From assembly GCA_001574975.1 (NCBI GenBank), contig KQ965834.1, positions 45,106 through 109,105 of the forward strand: 64,000 nt of DNA. The letters are read 5' to 3'. The stretch comes from Gonapodya prolifera JEL478. Taxonomy: Eukaryota > Monoblepharomycota > Monoblepharidomycetes > Monoblepharidales > Gonapodyaceae. The notes below the pieces were generated by a model, which saw only the letters and a program-made list of their open reading frames with translations, ran no database searches and had not been told where the DNA came from. This document shows positions 3,476-47,310 of the stretch, piece after piece (the first letter of the stretch is position 1; the number at the start of each line of letters is the position of its first letter). The position numbers were made by a program, and so were the translations under genes.

Positions 3476-5226
3476 CTACACAACCATCACCCCCCTCGGA
3501 TGCGCCGCCTGGGCCATCCCAACATACTCCTTCTCCACCCTCACGTACACCCACACCCACCGCCGCGCCACCTCGACCACCTTGAGCGCCGCGTCCAGAC
3601 CCGCCAACGCGTCCAGCGCCGCCCACGTTGCTTCAACGTCAGAGGGGCGGTCGACGTCCCGTGCAATGGCGTAGTATACGGGAATGAGTTTTACGAGGAA
3701 AGCGAACCGCCCGAAAGTGTCCAGGATGAGGACGATGTAGTAGACGACGGGCGGGCGGAAGCGCAGGGTTGGGCGGAGAAGTGGCGGGAAGCTCGCGCTC
3801 CCTGAGGCATTTAAGGGAAGAGCAGCACTTGTGGCAGTAGCAGCGTCAGGCCAGTGCCCAAGATCCCAATCCATCCTCACATCCCACCACAAACCATACA
3901 CCGCGCTCACGACGCTCGTCGCGAGCCACACCGTGACTGCTCGATTCAGGTGCCAAATGGCGTCTTGTTCCTCCCCCTGCGGTGCGTTACGGGCGCGGTC
4001 TTGGGCTCGAGCGGCCCACGTTGCGGCAACGATGGGGAGGAGCGAGACGACGTATTTGAGCGTGTTGGCGAGGTGGCGTCGCCGGTCGGGGTGTTTGGTG
4101 GGGAGGAGGAAGTATTCGGAGAGGCATTGGCGGATTCGGATTATGGGTGGGATGCTTTGAAAGCCCAGAACGGTGGTGATCTGAATGGGTTTTCCATTCT
4201 AAGCGCAAGAAATTATCTACATACCTCACAAAGATCGTGAAGACGACATCGTGAGTCCTCCACAGAGGTTCCGTCCACTGGGAGAAGCTCGGTTCGGCGT
4301 CAAACAAGAGCTCTTTGATACTGACATGAAGATCCCCGAAAACGCGAGAGAAGGAGCACAAGATATCGGCCAGGACGACGTCGGAGAAGGGCACGATTTG
4401 CAAGATGCGGATGTCGATGATTCGGAGGAGAGCGCTTTTGGTATTTGAACAAAGTGGGTAAATGTGAGCGTGGCTTATTTGGAGGTAAATTTTGCGAGAC
4501 TGACACTCACTCGACAAATTTTTGACGCTCTTTACGCTCCACAATGTCCAGCGGCATGAACACCAGTCCTAGAACCAGCGCCCACGTAATTGGAGGGACC
4601 ATGGCTGCACTTTCCTCATGAGAGGTGGAGAGCAGGAAGGTGTACAGAGTAATGGAAAGGAGGGTGATGGAGGATAGCGCGATAGAAATCGAGTAGAGAG
4701 ATCGGGTAGACGCGAAGGAGTCTGCTAATCCCGGTTCCGAAGCTAGGAGTTTCGGTGAAGGGGATCGTGTCACTCGGCTCGGCGAAACGAGTTCCGTCGT
4801 TTCCTGGTCGACTTCGAGAACGGCAGTGCTCTCGCTTTTCTCAGACACAGTTCGTTGCGTCAAGGACGGTGTCGCCGAATGTCTAGTCGGCGACGGGATG
4901 GCAACATTTCCCCCAAGCCGTCCATTCGCATGTCCAATCCCCGTCACCGCAAACACCCTCTCCACATCAATCCCCGCCCACACAAGTCCTGCCACATTAG
5001 CCGTCCAGCACCACACGCCCAACACCGCGTACAGGAGCACATGGTACCCCGAAGGCAGGGAGGAGAGGAAGAGCGCGAGCGAGGGTAGGGATGTGAGGAG
5101 GACGATGGCGAGGATGAGGAAGGCGGCGAGGGAGAGGAGGCGTAAGAGGGGGGGCATGGAGGGTGGTGAAGATGGTGGGTGCGTGGCGGGAACGGGTCGA
5201 ATTTCGTCGTTGGAGCGGCGGCCCAT
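3476..5226 (-). CDS. ERD1: Erd1-like EXS-domain membrane protein
   Basis: Multi-pass membrane protein of the EXS family (Erd1/XPR1). Erd1 acts in the Golgi, where it is linked to phosphate recycling and retention of resident proteins. Exon 1 (5226-4511) starts MGRRSNDEIRPV and has several hydrophobic segments (LLSLAAFLILAIVLL; YHVLLYAVLGVWCW; WALVLGLVFM). It joins through a GTGAGT donor to exon 2 at 4434, which carries the family hallmark VPFSDVVLADILCSF. The next exon begins near 4160 with IRIRQCLSEYF and continues with NTLKYVVSLLPIV, YGLWWDVRMDWDLG, RPPVVYYIVLILD and VARRWVWVYVRVEKEY, the conserved EXS string in order. The stop is TAG at 3476. A longer polar loop rich in Ser and Glu lies between membrane segments of exon 1. 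The true C-terminus could extend if another short intron exists near 3510. Confidence 0.85.
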
Positions 5227-13888: not shown

Positions 13889-15271
13889 ATGTCGCTACTC
13901 TTCGCTGATATCGAGTTTCCAGAAGAGATCTACACAAAAGAGTACGTGTTCGTGCAGCGTGATGGTTGGTGGCAAATGCTAAGCTGTCTCGGTCCGCTTC
14001 TCTATCCGACCACCGTTGATGCTGCAGTGGTTCTTTCACCCCAGCCATTCGAAACCTCATCGACCTGTCAGCTCGAGTTGCCGACGCTCATTTATCTGCG
14101 GCCAAGAGGTCGGAAACACTTTTGAAGTCGATGCAGCCTGGGAGCTCCACCCCATCACGCATTACACAGACACCGCCGAGCGCAAACGGGAATGCAAACG
14201 GATAAACATCCGCCGGAACACCTCAGCCTTCTGCCGCTGCCCGAACAGGGAGCAGCTGGAGCAGCAGTTTGAGAGAGTTCATTGCCCCGGATGTAAAGGA
14301 GGCCGCGTGCGGCCCGGCGAATGGAAGTAATGCAACTGGAAAATGATTTTGTTTGCTCCACCGACTGTCGAAACCGTGTGGGAACGGCAACAGCGCGAAG
14401 AGAGGACCCGGAGAAGGGCAGCAGAGGCCAGCATGAATTCAAAACAACGAAAGGAGAAGGAAAAGCCTGTAAAAAGCAGAGCGAAAGCACCGATGAGGAG
14501 AAGGACGCCCAAGAGACCAAATCCTCTAAGACCGCAAAATCCAACTCGGCCTCGGACCTCTCCCGCGTCCTCATCCCCAGAGCCATGGTCGTCGGGGGTG
14601 CCGTCGTGTCCGCCGCATCCACATACTTCGCATCACGCAACGCCGGGCATGTTCAGTTCCTGGGTGGATTCAGACAGGTCATGGAGGACGCCGAAGCCGC
14701 ACTCGAGTCAGCACAGGATTGGGTGCGGGAGCGGGAGCGCCTGGACTTGCCCGTGCCCCAACTCGCGCGCGAGGATATTAAAAAGCTCAAGGACTTGTGT
14801 GACCTGTGCTACCGTCTGGACGACTCTTCTGATAGGTGGAAGTTGGTTTTTTGGATATGTGATTATGGGACTCGGGGGCATCAGTGTGGCAGCTGCGGCG
14901 CTGACTGGGGATATGGTCGACAAAACGACCGGCGCCCTTGTCCTGAACATGGCGGCGAAAGGTGGGGCGGCTGGTGTGTATGTTGGGACTGCGTGGGTCG
15001 TGGGGGTGCTTGGTGAGTCGATCCTGGGAATCACTGTTTGGAGCCTCGTGTCGTCTAACGTCTCTCTGTCTATATCGCAGGCCTTCGATCTTCTTCCGTC
15101 TATACCTCCTCCTACGAGGTCTACGCCTCCCGCGTCATCTCCACCATCTGCGCCCCTGCCTGGGTCAACACGAACTACACGCCCGTGCCGTTCGAGAACA
15201 GCTTGCAGCGCCCAAGCTTTACTCTCAGACTCATGTACCTCCGGCGGCTGTTCCAACCGGGTTCGACCTGA
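13889..15271 (+). CDS. unrecognised multi-exon protein with hydrophobic segments
   Basis: The likely start is MSLLFADIEFPEEIYTKEYV at 13889. A protein-like frame follows an acceptor near 14025 (SGSFTPAIRNLIDLSARVAD...). From ~14480 a long frame runs through KSNSASDLSRVLIPRAMVVG and a helical segment (EDAEAALESAQDWVRERER) to about 14835. A 48-nt intron (GTGGAA...CATCAG) would then join it to VAAAALTGDMVDKTTGALVL, hydrophobic and Ala/Gly-rich (AAKGGAAGVYVGTAWVVGVL). After a GTGAGT intron (~15012-15080) the last exon reads LRSSSVYTSSYEVYASRVIS and ends RLFQPGST at a TGA (15271). It is possibly an organelle membrane protein; no family was recognised. Frames between 14100 and 14480 need unproven introns. 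Confidence 0.45.
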
Positions 15272-15730
15272 AGTTCGGGAGGCAGCCTTCCAGATGTACC
15301 GAGCGACGGGCCGCTGATTGATTTGGACAGACCACCGAGTCTTTTAGGAGGTGAGCTATGGTGATTTTGTGTCACAAAATGTTCCTGGTGTGACGATTTG
15401 GACCATAGTGGGTGTGGGCATACCAGGATATCGGACTCGACAACAAGAAACTCCCAAGCTTGAGCCCCTATCAATTTAATGCGCCGAATTTTCCTTTCGA
15501 CATCAATTTTTTTTGTACTATTGATGGGTGTAGATAGCGATTTTTTTGATGGACCCACTAGTGGCCTGCAACTCGGACCAAAGCCCGCTTGCTGTTTGAC
15601 ATAAAGCACGACACGATCCATTACGCTCCGCCGTCCCTCACAACACTTCTTCCACCATCTTTGCTCTTATCTCCGCTCTCAAACACCCACAAACACCGTC
15701 GCGCGACCCCACGATCACCGACAGTTTGTG

Positions 15731-18700
15731 ATGTCACCGGCTTCACCGGCCGAAACGAAGCGGCGCCTCGACTACTACTACAGCGTCGTCTCGTCGCTGA
15801 TTCTGTCGCGGCAGAGTGCTGTCACGGGGCTGATTCCAGGTGAATGGCGGCGATACGTTGACGTGACATGTCGCAATCGCTCATGGCGCCTTTCCACTCG
15901 TTTTTCTTCTAGCGTCTGTTGCGGTGACGACACATGGAGATTACAGGTAGGATTTTGCTCTGCTGGATGGGAAGTGACACTCCAATCATGGGCTATTTGT
16001 GATCGAATGACAGGGATGCCTGGGTCCGGGACAACGTTTACTCAATTTACTGCGTGTTCGGGCTTGCTCTTGCGTATCGGAGGCTTGACGATGATACTGG
16101 ACGGGCATGTACGTTTCGCGCTAGTTTTTGAAGCTCTTGGGGTTGAAATATTGATATCTTCCCTGGACAAATTCTCGGCTTGCAGACGAGCTGGAACATT
16201 CGACCGTAAAGTGTATGAGAGGCTTGCTGTTTTCGATGATGAAGCAGGCACATAAAGTCGAGAAGGTATTTCCTACTGACCCACACACGACAGGCGTTGA
16301 TTCCGAGCCTAATTCGTATCGATGAAATGACAGTTCAAGCACACACAGAATCCCCTGGACGCTTTGCACGCAAAGTACAATACGCAGTCTGGAGACCCTG
16401 TGGTTGCTGATTGGGAATGGGGACATCTTCAAGTTGTGTGTTGAACCGCACCATTAACCATCCCCGCTTCTTCTGTTGTTCTTACAATTCTTGACGTATT
16501 ACAAGGACGCCACGTCCATTTTCGTCCTTGCTCTCGCGGAAATGACAACAGCTGGGCTGGTGATCGTTTATAATCAGGACGAGGTAGATTTCGTACAGAA
16601 CCTTGTGTTTTACATCGAGCGCGCTGTGAGTATCATGGGTTGCATATTCTCATTATTCAGGCTAACAACTTTCTTGTAGTACCGCACTCCAGACTACGGC
16701 ATATGGGAGCGTGGCAATAAGATTAATCACGGCCAACCCGAGCTCAATTCCTCGTCAGTTGGAATGGCGCTGGCCGCCTTGCAAGCCATCAATGGTGTGA
16801 ATCTCTACGGCGCTCGTGGGGGCGCTGGCTCTGTCGTGCACGCGTATCCGGACGAAATCACCCGAAATTTCATGACACTTGTTTCTGCCCTGCCCCGTGA
16901 ATCGAACTCCAAGGAGGTAGACGCGGCGCTCTTGAGTGTGGTCGGGTGGCCAGCGTTTGCGATCAATGATCAAGAGCTTGTGAATTTGACCAAGAATGAA
17001 ATCCGGGAGAAGCTGCAGGGGAAATATGGTTGCAAGAGATTTTTGCGTGATGGGCATCAAACGGTTTTGGAGGATAACAGCAGACTTCATTACGAACCGC
17101 ACGAGCTCCGAAGGTTTGAGAACATTGAATCGGAGTGGTAGGTGTATCGTATCACCCCAACTTCCAACGAAAACTAACTATACCATCCAAAGGCCACTCT
17201 TTTTCACATACTCACTCATAGACGCACTATTTGTCAATGACACCAAGAGTGTCCAAGAATACTCGGAACTCCTAAAGCCTCTCCTGGTCTTATCTTCTTC
17301 CCACAGGGATGAAGGCGTGGAGACGAAACCAGAAGATGGTTTCCATATGGGGCTTGTACCGGAGCTGTTTATTGTCCCACACAACAGCATAGAAGCCGAA
17401 AAGCAGAGTCCTGGCAGTCAGAGGCGTGTTCCTGGTGAGAATGTACCATTGGTGTGGGCACAGGTGAGGGCTTTTGATTTACAGAACGGCGAGCTTTTAT
17501 TGTCTTACCTGTTAAACTTTCCAGTCATTGTATATCATATCGCTTCTTCTCATGGATCGCTTACTGCACCCGTCGGACATTGATCCACTTGGACGTCGTC
17601 TCATTCCGGCCAGCCAAACGCCAATACCTACAGTCCAAGTGGTGCTTCTTTCCGATTCACCCCAGCTTCAAGCGCTCCTAGCAACTTTCGGCCTTCCTAC
17701 ACAAACACTCGCAGAAGTGCAACCTGTTACCGTTGCGCCTCCTAGCGCACTGAGAGATGCTTTGACTAATTTGGGGCGAAATTCCAAGCTTGGTCTGACA
17801 GGAAGAGTAGGTAGGCCTATGGGAGCTTTGAGTACCAGTCGGCTGTACAGGTGTCAAGGACGCCTGTAAGTGTGGCGTCCCATTACCCGTCCAATTTGGA
17901 GCCATAATACCTCACGCCTCCTTTTACCAGGTACTGTTTCCTGCCGCATTTTCTCGACAGGGAGGAGTTCTACATGGTTTCAGACGAAAGCTATCTCCTG
18001 AATGTGTTTGAGTCGACTCTTGGCTTCCTTCGAAATTATTGGACGGGTGTCGGGAGACCAACCATGGTTGTCTTGCTGAACGAAAGCATGTTTGGCCCAT
18101 CCCTCTCGGCTCTGAGAAACCGTGAAATTATCAAGGCCCGAGATTCACGTCTCAAAGAAAAGCGCACTCTGCTTGATCTCGGAATGCAGTTGAAGGAGGG
18201 TGCTGTTAATGGTGTCAAGGTTCGACTGGGAAGGTTGCAGGAAATGAGTAAGTGCAATGGTCAGTTTACGTGTACGGTAACTAAAATTCTGCGTATCAGT
18301 TCCAACATCTCAGGTTGAGTCGCTAGACTTCCTTGCGTCAAAAGCACCAGAAAAGGGTGATCTGCATACCATTTTGTCTGGGGGGAACCGATTGGGAAGC
18401 AGGATGCTACCGACGCGACTAAATTTGTCCAGGCGAGCTACCGAGGAAGGCAGACGTGTTCGCAAAAAGAGCACCTTTGTTCGAATCCGCGAGGGCTCCA
18501 TTGGCGGGTTTGTGAGTCCGACAACACCACTTCTTCCATCGACACCCTTTGGCCTTCCCATTGCAAGCCAAACGTCCACAACATCGATCTCGACCCCTCT
18601 TGCGCTTGCATCGTCGCTATCATCTTCAATCAATAGTGCTAAAATGCAATCCTACTTTGATGGAGTGTCGGTAAAACCGTTCGAACCTGTGAGTTAAATG

Positions 18701-21214
18701 AGCTCTTGACGTGTGTATCTTTCTTATCTTCGATCACCACGATAGACTTCGAGTGAAGATGCAGAACCGCGAAATGGCGACGTGGAGAAAAAGAGAAAAC
18801 CCAGATCTCCGGGAACTCTTGGTTTGGTTCAGACGTTTGACGTGAACGATCTCAGAAGCATTTCCGATGCCGCTAAAGCACTTACTGGGACTTCTGATCT
18901 ACACGAACAAGGTTCGTATTCCCAGGGAAAGGGATCCGTGGTTCGCTCGTTTACCACGTACTTGTAAAATTTCCGCTTTAGCCGACCTCCTCCAGTATAT
19001 TTTCAGCCTTAAAGGCAAAGACTTCATCGTGGAAAATTTTCATGCATCAGTTGGTCAGCTTCTTGAAGAAGTCTACATCAAAGCGCGCGACCGCCGGCGA
19101 GTACTATTGAGCTCGGTCACTGAAATGTTTCATTCATATACTACTCCTCAGGATCTGGGATGTTGTCCGACAATCAGCGGGTGTACTTTCCAAAATGGTC
19201 AATTCCCTTACCAGTAATCTGACAGATTTGCTCGTCCGGAAGATTCCGGTATTTGTTCCAAGTTCGGGGTTGGAAGCGAATTCAGTTGACACTCTTCGCA
19301 GGTCTCGGTAGGCTTTGGGAACAAGGAATTCCTCATAACATCATCCATGAACTTGAACCCCGTCAGTCTTCGTGAGGCGATATTTACACAGTGAGCCCTT
19401 TGCTATGAAGATTTGTGCATCATCCAATCATAATGTTCAAATATTCAGTACATCCGATGCTCGCGACGGTCCCTTAGTAGAAGAACTCATCACTTACCTC
19501 GGTGGCTTTATCAGATCGGACCCAGTATGGTTCACAGGAATCTTCCGTCTCCGTACTTTTTACCTCGTGGCTGCAATGCGAGATGAAATTTCTAGGTCGT
19601 ACGGATGCCTAGAAGAAGACGCACATCGAAGGCTTATGGAAGTGAGTCTCAACGCTGGCACTGCATCCATTTATAGGATAGTTCAAACCCTTCGTTATCT
19701 TTTCAGTCGAGCCCCTTTGAGATCTTCACTCTTGTGCGCCAAGTCCTCACTGCCCATCAAGAAGTTGACCCCATTTCCCCGAGCACTGGGTCCGCGCAGA
19801 GCCCTGTCCGAGGGCTCCGCTCCCACGTTTCTGCGGTCCAAGATGCATCATCCATTCCATTGATTCGCACTCCGTCGCCATCGCTTCCTTTGAACATCGC
19901 CAAGGCTGGTCGCAAGGGGCTGCCTTCACAGCTCACTATTTCTGTGCAGTCCGCCCACGGAGGGTTCGTCAACGTTCATGTCGTAGTGGACGGTCACCCC
20001 GAAGTCCTGCCAGACGGTGTTCTGGCACTTCTCACCCCCGGAACCCGTGGTATTCTCATCATCACCATCGACTTTATCAGTGGCACTATCGAAGATGGCG
20101 TCCTCTTCGACACTCACTTTGCAGTGACTGAGTCTGCTGAGCTGCTCAAACACCTCCATGACCTGGACGACGGCAAGATTATCATCGTGGTCACTCTGGA
20201 CGAGGTCTGTCAGAACCTCACCCCCGTCGCACGTCGCGAGCTCGCGAAGCTCGGAAGCCGCAACGCCGCGGACCTCCGCCCCATGGATCTGTGGGTCATG
20301 GTTGCTCAGGTTGGCAACCCTGCCGAGTGCGTCGAGCACGCGATTGGAGCCGGGTTCCAAGAGAAGCACCTTTGCGCCGTCGAGAAGACAGTGGATCTCG
20401 CCGGCCGGAGAAAGGATCTCGATTTCTTGGCCATGGCGGAGAAGGAGGAGATTGCCAAGAGCACAGTCATGGCCATCGTAGGGCCATGTCAGGGACGGTG
20501 GTACAGAAGGAGACGGTTGGACGGAGCGTTGAACAGAGTTCCGGAGAAATTTTATTCAAAGGTTCGTTCTGTTTGTCGGGTGAGAGCAATGTGTGAGGCT
20601 CATAGGTGGCTTTCCTCTGGAACAAACAGTGCTGGGCAGTTCTCAATCGGGTTCGAGGTCTATCGCTCACTTCGGACAAGATACTGTACCGCGACCCACT
20701 CACTTCGGAGAAGACTCCCGAAGAGTTTAACTTCGCTTTGGTGAGCTTCTGTGGATTATTCATTGTTCTAATTGTCTCCCCGTTAAAACGTTGGACTTGA
20801 ATGTAGGTCATTGAGACGTTTTTGGACTCCATTCTCAACATCGGAGAGAGGGCAGCTGCCGTTGAGCTGCTGAGTGTGCTCCACCAGATTTTCGAATCAA
20901 AGGAGGTCAATCTTGGAGATGACATTGTGGATCTTCTTGATGTTATCAGGTGAGCACTCCGAAGTTTCCAAACCGACACAAAGCCGTTTTGACAGTGCCT
21001 CGGCACTTTTAGTGACGCCACGCGGTCGTACTGGAAGACCTGGGTCGAGGAATTCGGGGAAAGCCTCGCACGGTCTGGCGAGGATGGCAGCCCGGACTTC
21101 AACGCGCACTCGAGGTTGGCACGGAGGCTGTTCTTTGATCTGGACAGCGAGAGGATGAAGGCGTTCTTGACGGCCAGTGCGAACAAAGTGGTGTTTAAGC
21201 AGGTCGACAAGTAG
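15731..21214 (+). CDS. phosphorylase b kinase regulatory subunit (alpha/beta type) with inserted ILEI domain
   Basis: Regulatory subunit of phosphorylase kinase, which activates glycogen phosphorylase. About 17 exons. The first ones are 15731-15839, 15913-15946, 16014-16108, 16196-16265, 16334-16435, 16506-16625, 16680-17137, 17193-17463 and 17525-17865; phases agree at each join I checked. The N-terminal GH15-like (alpha/alpha-barrel) part matches closely: [81 protein letters not shown] and [13 protein letters not shown]. The C-terminal part has [14 protein letters not shown], then an ILEI-like domain, then [21 protein letters not shown] and a final exon ending FKQVDK at TAG. There is no C-terminal CaaX Cys, unlike the farnesylated mammalian alpha and beta chains. 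No catalytic gamma subunit is in the window. Convergent with the reductase gene at 21361. Confidence 0.93.
19928..20350 (+). other. ILEI/PANDER-type domain inside the phosphorylase kinase subunit
   Basis: Within one continuous exon-frame. The domain starts near [12 protein letters not shown] and has the family core [62 protein letters not shown], and [10 protein letters not shown] at the end. This is the spacing of FAM3 proteins and the POMGNT1 stem domain (GRGI..., FD, DG-[IV]-[IV], AR...LGS, D-x-W-[AV]). The flanking phosphorylase kinase sequence (upstream [17 protein letters not shown], downstream [17 protein letters not shown]) is in the same frame with no stop, so this is a true insertion in the protein and not a neighbouring gene. 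Confidence 0.85.
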
Positions 21215-21360
21215 AGACGAGCACGTCCCTCGAGCTGATAGAGAGTAGCATCACGCTGTTCGGTCATGTACTATTATGTTCAATCCACGTTAAATGCTCA
21301 GGTCCATCGATATCATCCTTCGGTTATGTGCTACCCAAGATAAATTATCTTTGTACCACA

Positions 21361-22321
21361 TTACAGCGCTGGCTCAGTGTCCTTCCCAAACAGCTCCCCC
21401 ATCTCGGTACCTCGGTGCGTCGCAGCATTGACACAGCTCTCCACCATCCCCCTGAACCCTCCATCCTCGAGGACTTTCAAGCCCGCTGCGGTTGTACCCC
21501 CGGGACTCGTCACCCTCCTCCGCAACTCGGCGCAGTCGACACCTTTCTTTCCCTCTTCCAAGGCCATGCGACCAGCGCCGATACAGGTCTGGGCGGTGAG
21601 CGCGCGTGCGGTCTCCCGGGGCATGCCGAGATTGACGGCGGCGTCTTCCATTGCTTCGAGCAGCAGGAAGAAGTACGCTGGACCGGACCCCGAGAGGCCC
21701 GTCGTAACGTCAATCATGCGCTCCGAGTCGACCCACTCGACAGACTTGGACACGGTCTTGAGCAGAGTTACTGAGAACTCCTTTTGTTGCGCAGTGACTG
21801 CACCGTTAGCGACCAGTCCCGAGGCGCCCTCGAGAAGCAACGCTGGCGTGTTGGGCATCACTCTGACGATAGCCAGAGACCCGCCTAGCCATCGTTCGAG
21901 ATCCACGCTCCGGATCCCGGCTGCGATGGAGACCACCAGAGGTTTCACCTTCTGCACGGCACCGGCGACGCCTTTCGCGACCAACTGCATGACCTGGGGC
22001 TTTATGCAGAAGAGAACCACGTCCGCAGGGCCGCCCGATGGGTGTCCTAGGACGGCCTGATCGTTGGACGAGGCATTCAAAGTGCCGAACTGGGTTTGCA
22101 GGGACCGGGCGAGGTCCGCGTTTGGCTCGAACACGGTGATGTGGGTGGTGGGGTATCCGGCGTTCACGAGACCGCCAATGATGGACGAGGCCATGTTGCC
22201 TCCACCTTGGAAAGAGTGGATTGGGGTGATCGTGATTGGATGTGAGGAAAGGGGGTTTCGTGGGCTTCGAAAGAAAGTAGTGCAGGTACACACCGACGAA
22301 TGCAAGACGTTTCTGTGCCAT
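21361..22321 (-). CDS. PRO3: pyrroline-5-carboxylate reductase
   Basis: Reduces 1-pyrroline-5-carboxylate to proline with NAD(P)H, the last step of proline synthesis. Exon 1 (22321-22294, MAQKRLAFV) joins exon 2 (from 22205) through an intron of about 88 nt with donor GTGTGT and acceptor CCAAG. The splice completes the Rossmann glycine motif FVGGGNMASSIIGGL. Later blocks are VRVMPNTPALLLEGASGLVA, TGLSGSGPAYFFLLLEAMED and RRRVTSPGGTTAAGLKVLED, the ProC signature. The length (about 280 residues) is normal. The stop is TAA at 21361. It faces the phosphorylase kinase gene tail to tail, 147 bp apart. Confidence 0.94.
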
Positions 22322-24094
22322 TGCTCGGAACTAGTGGAGCTGAAAGGTTTGTTGGGTAAACTAGAAATTGGTGACCACAGTTGCAACAAATGTGCTCTGA
22401 TCAAAAATTTATATCTTTCTTCAGAAGTTAAACACTTGCGCAAGTCCATGAAAGAAAGCAAAAGCAGCCTTCCATATGAATTTCCCGATATTGCAAGCGT
22501 GTTGAACTAAGGCACACGCCGGTTATGAATCGTTCTCTGGCACCCAACGTCTTAAAAATCCTAGGACGCTGCACCTCTTGGGTTACTTGCACGGTGCTTG
22601 ACGTGATAGTGTCCCGATATCCCAACGTTCTGGCGTTGTTAAGTCCCAGATTCCAGTGGTCAGAACAAGGTCTCCATGATGCCAAAACTAGAAACCGTGT
22701 GTTCTATTTCAATACATCCGTGAGTTTGGAAAATGGTTCTTGACTTCAAGGTTTGACAGTTGGGCGTCACTTAAACTCGTAACGCCCCAACGGAATGAAA
22801 GTTGTTTACGTTTTCCTTGCGCAATATAATATCGAGTCACCTATTATGTGGAAGAAGACACACACAGTCGACTTATATGCGCCGTCCTTGGCAGTCGGCA
22901 GCGCTTGGCCACGGAGGCCCGAGCGAGGACCCTTGATATCCACGAGTCACAGCACCGCACCCCTGCTCAGTATCCCACCCTCTCCGACAGCTTGACACAA
23001 AACTCATTTCCGTCACTTTGCAATCTTGGGTCAGGCCAATCCTATTGATCGTGCCCACGCTTCCCGTGCTCAAAGGACAGTCGTTTGCATGTTTCAAGTA
23101 ACCGATATCATTAAATTGGTACGATCTTGTGATATTAGACCCTTTGATACGAGCGAGTCACAGACCCGAATTACCTTTTCAGACGTGCTCCAACGCCACT
23201 TGAAGCGAACTGCGTGTCGCTTATCGCTGCGCGCAGCTTCACCCGACATTGTTGCGTTCGTACATCCTCACAGAGGCCTTTGCCGCTTTCCGCGCGCGAC
23301 CAGCTCCCCATCTCCTAGTCGTCTGCAATCGGACACCGACATGCTCACAACGTGCGCCCCGGGATCTCCTGCTTACCGTCCGGCCTCCTTTGAGTCTGGG
23401 CCCCAGGCGCCCCTTTTCTTCTCCGGAATACCGAGTAGCACGCACAGGATCTCCAGCTGTTGCAACAAGACAGCTTATCACCGTAGAGGACGTTAGCTAC
23501 GTATGGATGAGTTTTGGACAGGGAGTGCAGGGTGGGGAACAGCTTATAGCGCTCATCGTGATCCATTCAAGCACGACGTAAACTGGAGTTTTTGGGCTCG
23601 GTTAAAAACTCACGCTCAGTTCCTGGAGCCAGAACCGGCACCCCCAATGTGTCCGATCCTGGCGATATCTTTGTGACGATATCCAGACGCCGGACGGTCG
23701 ACGGACTTGTTGTCACAGCACGGACTCTCTTTCCCGACTTACTTAATGTTTTTGATCTTGTCGACGTCGTCTTGGTTCATTGCATTGTATTGGAACCTGA
23801 ATGCAGATTTTGTTTTGAAACATCAACGTCAGTCGTGATCACGGAGCTGCCGTACTTTTGAGTGGAATGAATGTCACATGTCAACAGATCAACTGACGCC
23901 ACAAGAATTGCAGCAGAAAATGACGCGTGAGACTTCGAAGGATCAGATCGATGATGCACGTATGGCAAATATACGACTTCAAAAAAGACATCCAACAATA
24001 AAGTCTGAACTGAATAAAGGCAAAAAAACACCACTCAAAGCCCGTCCAACACCCCTCCTCTCCCCCTCTACCTCCTCTCCCCCGTTCCCCCACA
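22322..24094. other. intergenic, no convincing gene
   Basis: About 1.8 kb with only short overlapping frames. No conserved motif, tRNA-like structure or repeat was noticed. It probably contains the promoter of the reductase gene and the 3' flank of the peroxidase gene. Confidence 0.45.
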
Positions 24095-44020: not shown

Positions 44021-46211
<2,191 letters not shown>

Positions 46212-46900
46212 TTATTCGACAATTGAAGTGCTGAACGCACCAAGCAGTTTTGGTCGGGCCAAAGCGTGCACAGTCCCTCAATTATATTGCTCTCTGAATT
46301 TTGAGCATCCGAAACCGAAATGGGCGCTACCGGGCCATCAATCGTGAAATCAATAAGCCTGGAAAATGGGCGATGCTCCGGAGGACCACAATACCGCTCT
46401 CAGGGGGCTACTTTAGTCAGGATATCATTTCTTTGCTATCGCATCCTCCGTTCGTCTGCAAAATTTTCCTCCAGTCAGGAGCCACCCGCTACCACGGAGA
46501 GCACTTCGCAAAGTGACGCAACACCGCCCAGTGGACACTTACCAGAGAGGAGAAAGTCCAGCGTTTCGACCGGAATATCCGGCCCCGCAGTGGGATTTTC
46601 GGGATAAAATCAACAACAGTGAATTACGATAAGCGATTCCAGTGGAAAATTGCCGTGCCAAGCTTTCGCGTGTATTTTTTGATGTCGATTCGACTTTTGT
46701 GGATATTGCTCTGATCTTGAGGCTGTAGTGGGTTTTACATGCAATGCGTCTGCATATTCATTCTCAATTTTCAATTCTTTTAGCATACACTTTCTGGTCC
46801 TTGCTATCGTGAAGGAATCTTATCCTTTGGTGAAAATCCTCACCATATGTTCGTGCCATGAAATGTCCAAGGATCGCTCAGACACTCCAATTGCTTCCAT
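46212..46900. other. intergenic
   Basis: Promoter side of the sirtuin gene and 3' flank of the small secreted protein. Only short frames. Confidence 0.45.
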
Positions 46901-47310
46901 CTAGCATTGAGTGCAGGCGTCTCCATGGGCAGTGCAAGACCCACCGCTTCTGGTATACTGTTCGCAACGTAACGCCCAATTGCCAGCGGTGAGGAATCCG
47001 TGAGACACACATTTGCATATCCGGGAAACTCACCCAACCCTTCGGTAGGTGCGACCGTTGTCAGGACGGTTCACTTGGCAGGAACTGTATCCCGTGTCGA
47101 AGTCAGTAACACACGTCTTTTGAAAAATTGTGATTGTGCGTGATACGTCGCAATGCCGCGGAAACATGAAGCGAGGTGACAAAATCCGGATATCACTTAC
47201 CCTCTGCATCCACCAGCAGACCTAGGGCTGCCATTTGCGCGTTCTTCAGTGGAGGCGGCACTGGCCACGTAGGCAAAGATGGCGAGGAGAAGGAGCGTAA
47301 GAAGACGCAT
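46901..47310 (-). CDS. putative small secreted Cys-rich protein
   Basis: Exon 1 (from 47310) encodes a clear signal peptide, MRLLTLLLLAIFAYVASAA, then STEERANGSPRSAGGCRG up to a GTAAGT donor. Downstream, Cys-containing segments read TCVTDFDTGYSSCQVNRPDN (~47120-47043, GTGAGT donor) and YTRSGGSCTAHGDACTQC with TAG at 46901, after an acceptor AACAG. These look like one small secreted protein with six Cys. The first join is out of phase with the obvious donor and acceptor, so at least one border is wrong or the gene is damaged. No family is recognised; an effector-like or antimicrobial role would be speculation. Confidence 0.45.

Follow-up and report, generated by a model that had tools for sequence, protein, structure and literature searches.

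An ILEI-type domain in the D4–D5 linker of a phosphorylase kinase alpha/beta homologue of Gonapodya prolifera and other early-diverging fungi

Phosphorylase kinase is the standard textbook example of a kinase that controls glycogen, and its alpha/beta family is cytosolic in animals. FAM3- and POMGnT1-type ILEI domains lie in secreted or membrane-anchored proteins. A gene in the stretch of Gonapodya prolifera JEL478 DNA analysed here (64,000 nucleotides, hereafter the window) appears to join the two in a single polypeptide, and the question that this locus raises is whether the combination is real, how widely it is shared, and what an ILEI domain might be doing inside a regulatory subunit of this kind.

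Gene model and placement of the ILEI domain

The features of the window gene are collected in Table 1. The spliced 1435-residue protein matches Pfam GH15 over residues 11-964 (E 4.3e-74) and KPBB_C over residues 1251-1384 (E 9.3e-18), and along its length it can be aligned with human phosphorylase kinase alpha (E 2e-202) and beta (E 7.3e-187). With a GH15-like D1 and a KPBB_C (D4-D5) part, the gene is, judged from its sequence, a member of the phosphorylase kinase alpha/beta family. The order D1 to D5 is the same as in the human muscle alpha and beta subunits (PDB 8jfk), as given in the portions of PMC10978961 used here; we have adopted the domain names of that paper, the borders drawn on the window protein being approximations.

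Table 1. Features of the phosphorylase kinase alpha/beta-type gene in the window (positions in the window; residues of the spliced protein)
Feature	Position	Strand	Residues	Evidence or remarks
Phosphorylase kinase alpha/beta-type gene, GH15-like D1 to D5	15731-21214	+		20 exons, 1435 aa; Pfam GH15, ILEI, KPBB_C
Exon 17	19707-20561	+		285 codons in a single open frame that takes in both junctions and the entire ILEI domain
Ser/Pro-rich linker ahead of the ILEI domain	19749-19931	+	about 1006-1066	sequence; omega 0.081 between copies
ILEI/FAM3-type domain with leading strands	19932-20333	+	1067-1200 (borders approximate)	POMGnT1-stem alignment from residue 1079; omega 0.064
Pfam PF15711 ILEI match	20046-20318	+	1105-1195	E 2e-14, 54.3 bits against a cut-off of 27; genome profile match at the same position
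Equivalent of POMGnT1 Arg129	20046-20048	+	Arg1105	R in 120/122 rows, 2 gaps
Equivalent of POMGnT1 Asp179	20199-20201	+	Asp1156	D in 121/122 rows, 1 gap
Place of POMGnT1 Arg207	20283-20285	+	Met1184	R 117, M 3, gaps 2 of 122 rows
KPBB_C / D5 part	20484-21214	+	1251-1435	last part of exon 17 plus exons 18 to 20; KPBB_C match, human alpha match from 1252

The first-pass annotation had described one uninterrupted frame leading from phosphorylase kinase regulatory sequence through an ILEI domain and back again. This is borne out by exon 17, which runs from the end of D4 through the Ser/Pro-rich linker and the ILEI domain to the start of D5 and needs no internal splice, and the span then given for the domain, 19928-20350, is close to the one found here. 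The frame proposed at the time, 19734-20744, does read open (over 19677-20744), but the coding exon stops at 20561, at the donor GTTCGT, and in the gene model the rest of the open frame (20561-20744) consists of intron 17 and of exon 18 in another frame. An hmmscan of that frame against Pfam, the check suggested by the annotation, returned PF15711 (E 6.2e-15, 55.9 bits, cut-off 27, profile positions 1-90 of 90), and in the spliced protein too the profile is covered end to end, 1-90 of 90, with a score above the curated cut-off. When exon 17 was compared with PDB sequences using phmmer, it matched FAM3A (1.4e-7), FAM3C (1.1e-5) and the POMGnT1 stem (4.8e-5), and its last 25 residues matched phosphorylase kinase alpha (6.8e-4). 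A single-sequence AlphaFold2 model had a mean pLDDT of 36.7 and is too poor to be used for the beta-beta-alpha fold of ILEI. From the profile and alignment evidence, the predicted ILEI domain sits in the linker between D4 and D5 of the regulatory subunit.

Of the 19 introns, 18 start with GT and intron 13 with GC, and all 19 end in AG. A frameshift near 19110-19160 in the window copy was considered and ruled out: the GC-donor intron explains the alignment with a second copy of the gene, so that the gene is intact in the present model. Intron 13 (window 19097-19151) has its GC donor in the window and a GT in the second copy; introns 1 and 16 have GC in the second copy (positions 686-758 and 4505-4577 of the reverse complement of locus L003) and GT in the window.

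This second copy, a diverged one, lies in the same genome on contig C39 (loci L001 and L003); the aligned segment is 85% identical at the nucleotide level. Each of the 20 exons has its counterpart there, bordered by GT/GC-AG, and together they give an open frame of 1433 residues. The two copies are 91.2% identical in exons and 73.4% in introns. Over the 134 codons of the ILEI part the copies differ by 47.5 synonymous and 13.5 nonsynonymous changes (dS 0.73, dN 0.046, omega 0.064; omega for the whole gene is 0.053), and the ILEI codons are free of any frame change. The ILEI domain in the window lineage is thus under strong purifying selection, and the same exons together with the low omega in both copies would make it unlikely that the domain is spliced out. 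A search of the genome with the exon 7 protein gave two copies of the gene and one with PF15711 gave both copies and nothing further, these counts being lower bounds; a KPBB_C family search of the same genome gave no match, probably because introns and the insertion break up the gene.

The second copy extends beyond the gene. It (G000:C39, L003) corresponds to window 15155-23025, where the kinase gene together with its neighbour is 85% identical; the neighbour is a gene on the minus strand (21364-22302) for a pyrroline-5-carboxylate reductase (P5CR_dimer, E 8.7e-38) that is found beside the second copy as well. Most of window 45000-46620 (within 45000-47000) also has its counterpart on C39, at 90-92%. 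The diverged C39 copy suggests either that the genome is a diverged diploid or hybrid, of which these are haplotypes, or that a large region was duplicated.

Spread of the architecture and origin of the insertion

A whole-protein search, in which 8000 candidates were scored and 5078 fell below E 0.001, supplied the relatives used in this study, namely the best 120 of the 5078. According to precomputed database domain labels, 118 of these 120 carry GH15, ILEI and KPBB_C, and the seven relatives whose taxonomy was checked belong to seven phyla (Chytridiomycota, Monoblepharomycota, Blastocladiomycota, Zoopagomycota, Kickxellomycota, Mucoromycota and Mortierellomycota). The same fusion, for which a search of other early-diverging fungi had been recommended, is therefore readily found there, and the notion that the architecture is peculiar to one fungus is refuted. 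The top relative among the matches listed is P0002 from Gonapodya sp. JEL0774, a partial protein 72% identical over 65% of the query; the Spizellomyces punctatus protein SPPG_05434 (P0004) is 47% identical over 96% of the query and has the same three Pfam domains as the window protein, and comes from a species in which transgenic lines are available (PMC7213984). Shorter queries were less productive: the 336-residue frame of the first-pass annotation had no protein match among 4731 candidates, probably since candidates are limited by query length, and residues 985-1300 of the spliced protein matched P0002 only. Some of the database entries are already named 'Phosphorylase kinase alphabeta' or 'Phosphorylase b kinase regulatory subunit', so that, with the domain labels, the architecture is already present in databases. 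In the open-access literature searched, none of the papers listed describes ILEI in phosphorylase kinase, as far as their entries and the openings of their abstracts show. The window gene encodes a modified form of a familiar enzyme subunit, one that is common to many early-diverging fungi.

Two of the relatives, P0065 from Synchytrium microbalum and P0099 from Gorgonomyces haynaldii, lack the ILEI domain and have intact flanks, as hmmscan confirms, their D4-D5 linkers measuring 37 and 68 residues, respectively. We looked at their position in a FastTree tree from which the linker was left out (132 taxa, the 122 fungal rows plus 10 of the 80 cyanobacterial ones; 1129 columns). P0065 groups with the ILEI-bearing P0059 with a support of 1.0. 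The grouping of P0099 with P0062 and P0081 is weak (0.596), but the enclosing group of eight, the other seven of which bear ILEI, has a support of 1.0; in addition, the stretch KDGPTEVI, which comes after the ILEI domain in other relatives, is still present in P0099. The possibility that these two proteins represent an ancestral ILEI-less state is disfavoured, as both nest among ILEI bearers, and loss or a gene-model error is probably the likelier explanation. In the same tree P0002, the window gene and its copy form one group with a support of 1.0. The two ILEI-less proteins are also what could be put forward for regarding the domain as an artefact of gene model or assembly, or as a segment spliced out of the transcript. 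We consider this very improbable, given that the domain is encoded in the same exon in two diverged copies under the constraint described above and that the same architecture recurs in 118 of the best 120 relatives.

The site of insertion can be compared outside the fungi by measuring the linker as the alignment stretch from the end of D4 to the RRR-DG motif of D5. Its median is 236 residues in the 122 fungal rows, whereas 79 of 80 cyanobacterial homologues have 39-45 residues, which is too short for an ILEI domain, and the remaining row, of less than 900 residues, has none. PF15711 was not found in any of 10 cyanobacterial genomes picked among those of the 80 loci, in a search whose controls were silent, although the same profile does match the window's own genome. 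Cyanobacterial homologues such as that of Calothrix (L019) share GH15 and KPBB_C with the window protein and lack a linker of ILEI size. The match to the KPBB_C profile starts at profile position 3-4 in L019 and in the ILEI-less P0065 and at 68 in the window protein, because the insertion splits the Pfam KPBB_C model. The cyanobacterial homologues (L019-L098) cover nearly the whole protein, L019 itself having 1017 residues; the agreement of aligned residues with L019 is 46.7% for the window protein and 50.1% for P0004.

In human alpha the corresponding linker has 83 residues (967-1049), with no ILEI match reported, compared with 242 (1010-1251) in the window protein. The domain does occupy the place of the human alpha linker, as had been supposed, since residues 967-1049 fall between the second and third aligned stretches. 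The further proposal that ILEI replaces a phospho-regulatory loop is unsupported: with a linker of 39-45 residues in 79 of 80 cyanobacterial homologues, a long loop as in animals may not have been the original condition. In the window gene a Ser/Pro-rich stretch (about 1006-1066) is retained before the ILEI domain. The name 'multiphosphorylation loop' for the human stretch did not come up in a term search of the portions of PMC2639635 covered. One may presume that the ILEI domain would have been inserted into a short linker before the early-diverging fungal phyla split.

Residues of the sugar-contact triad

Whether the inserted domain could bind sugar can be approached through the animal ILEI domains. 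According to the portions of PMC9802357 used here, Arg129, Asp179 and Arg207 of the POMGnT1 stem directly take part in binding beta-linked GlcNAc; FAM3 members share this conserved triad, as does Fam3L2, a sugar-binding domain of C. elegans FAMP-1. FAM3C, FAM3A and Fam3L2 bound sugars in vitro, Fam3L2 binding GlcNAc and mannose, and Fam3L1, in which Asp179 and Arg207 are not conserved, bound none (PMC9802357). The resins tested carried lactose, mannose, fucose, GlcNAc and GalNAc, and the same portions of the paper do not mention glycogen, maltose or glucose, so that they speak neither for nor against the glycogen targeting suggested in the first-pass annotation.

To place the triad we numbered the POMGnT1 chain of the phmmer alignment from the Arg of its GRGI motif, taken as 129, which brings the Asp to 179 and the second Arg to 207. 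The window gene shares the ILEI domain with FAM3A, FAM3C, the POMGnT1 stem and Fam3L2 and has equivalents of Arg129 and Asp179, but differs from them in having Met for Arg207, and so lacks the complete triad of the sugar-binding type. Met at this place is seen in three rows, namely the window gene, its copy and P0002. When these three and the two ILEI-less proteins are left out, the triad is complete in all 117 of the other ILEI-bearing relatives (from the best 120 of 5078). Only seven of 118 ILEI columns are invariant in the 117 rows and the triad makes up three of these; the naive chance of this, 1.3e-4, overstates the case because the 117 rows are related. Moreover, mammalian FAM3 and POMGnT1 have the triad as well, which makes structural conservation inseparable from ligand binding.

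It is here that the window lineage becomes informative. Among well-conserved ILEI columns (at least 90% agreement) the window protein deviates in 9 of 28, against 73 of 468 columns outside residues 1001-1250 (Fisher p 0.033), a comparison that leaves out the linker pieces, where 4 of 6 deviate. Several of the changes in this lineage fall next to triad residues, namely Asp1157 to Glu, Tyr1183 to Pro, and Ser1186 to Leu or Arg. That strong purifying selection acts on a domain without Arg207 suggests that this residue is dispensable for folding, and its constancy elsewhere may then suggest ligand binding.

The same observations can be turned the other way. If the window lineage has Met for Arg207 and deviates in the 9 conserved ILEI columns counted above, and the domain is nevertheless retained at the omega given above, ILEI might be a structural or protein-docking module that binds no sugar at all and contacts, for example, the gamma kinase, glycogen phosphorylase or another partner, the more so as it adjoins D5, the gamma-docking domain in human alpha. 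The intact triad of all 117 other bearers examined argues against this, though the window lineage shows that Arg207 is replaceable under selection, and we regard it as possible but doubtful. As for sugar binding, then, the proposal made from the window sequence receives its support from the 117 other bearers, and fails to find it in the window gene, its copy and P0002, with their change of Arg to Met. The broken triad makes 'direct sugar sensing in this fungus' the weakest place for such a claim: a sugar-binding role appears well motivated in the other ILEI-bearing fungi and least safe in the window genome.

Possible roles of a domain beside D5

In the human enzyme, D5 of alpha is the binding site for gamma's autoinhibitory segment, and the subunit is organised by D4 (PMC10978961). 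An ILEI domain between D4 and D5 could adjoin the gamma-binding interface, and from this we favour a module in the cytosol that binds sugar and thereby either reports on a carbohydrate or tethers the protein to one. The role of the glucoamylase-like domains in phosphorylase kinase is described as still open in the same portions of that paper, and human alpha has the catalytic-site glutamates, yet its glucoamylase activity was undetected (PMC10978961). Counting along the human alpha alignment locates the counterparts of human Glu185 and Glu371: both glutamates are present in 80 of 80 cyanobacterial homologues and, one gapped row aside, in every fungal row (121 of 121), and the kept pair may point to an enzyme-like or second sugar-binding role of D1.

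One could go further and suppose that the protein is mainly a GH15-type enzyme, or a sugar sensor in its own right, with ILEI as an auxiliary part for binding sugar, comparable to those of carbohydrate-active enzymes. Besides the conserved glutamates and the occurrence of homologues in cyanobacteria, the outcome of the searches for a gamma subunit could be read in this way: a search by kinase gave 106 generic matches in the genome, the best by E value at 38% identity, and the C-terminal half of gamma as query gave no match in the genome, in a search that had no positive control. The C-terminus could be read likewise. A farnesylated CaaX motif closes the human chains (PMC10978961), whereas the window protein ends KVVFKQVDK, without one. 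Of the 122 fungal rows, a few of them partial, 1 fits the strict CaaX pattern and 5 fit a looser one, and 0 of 80 cyanobacterial rows fit the strict pattern; as the cyanobacterial homologues also lack it, CaaX is a trait of the human subunits and not one that defines the family. However, the lack of detected activity in human alpha with the same glutamates, the retention of the KPBB_C (D4-D5) part and the presence of a glycogen phosphorylase locus in the genome (C28) all speak against this reading, and we think it unlikely that the protein is chiefly an enzyme or sensor of the GH15 type.

The explanation to which we would give about an even chance of being right is that these genes encode a fungal alpha/beta homologue whose D4-D5 linker carries an ILEI domain that is sugar-binding in most phyla, and that in the window lineage has another ligand or a structural or protein-contact role. 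In most bearers ILEI would be a cytosolic sugar-binding module beside D5 that, on binding its ligand, conveys the carbohydrate status to the kinase or recruits the complex to a glycan. With one of the three contact residues changed, the ILEI domain of the window lineage probably has a different ligand, or serves mainly as a folded module for structure or protein contacts. A more specific version, which we consider rather unlikely, is that the domain is a built-in cytosolic sensor, whose pocket would read an amino sugar or a glycan end and set gamma via D5, thereby tying glycogen breakdown to cell-wall (chitin) sugar; the Monoblepharidomycete lineage would then have lost both the pocket arginine and the control.

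In any case, a conserved domain of the sugar-binding type, found in several fungal phyla beside the counterpart of the D5 that docks the kinase in human alpha, provides a concrete and testable sensor candidate, and the natural change of Arg to Met in one lineage offers a ready comparison. If the proposal is true, phosphorylase kinase would be a cytosolic home for a domain known mainly from secreted or lumenal animal proteins.
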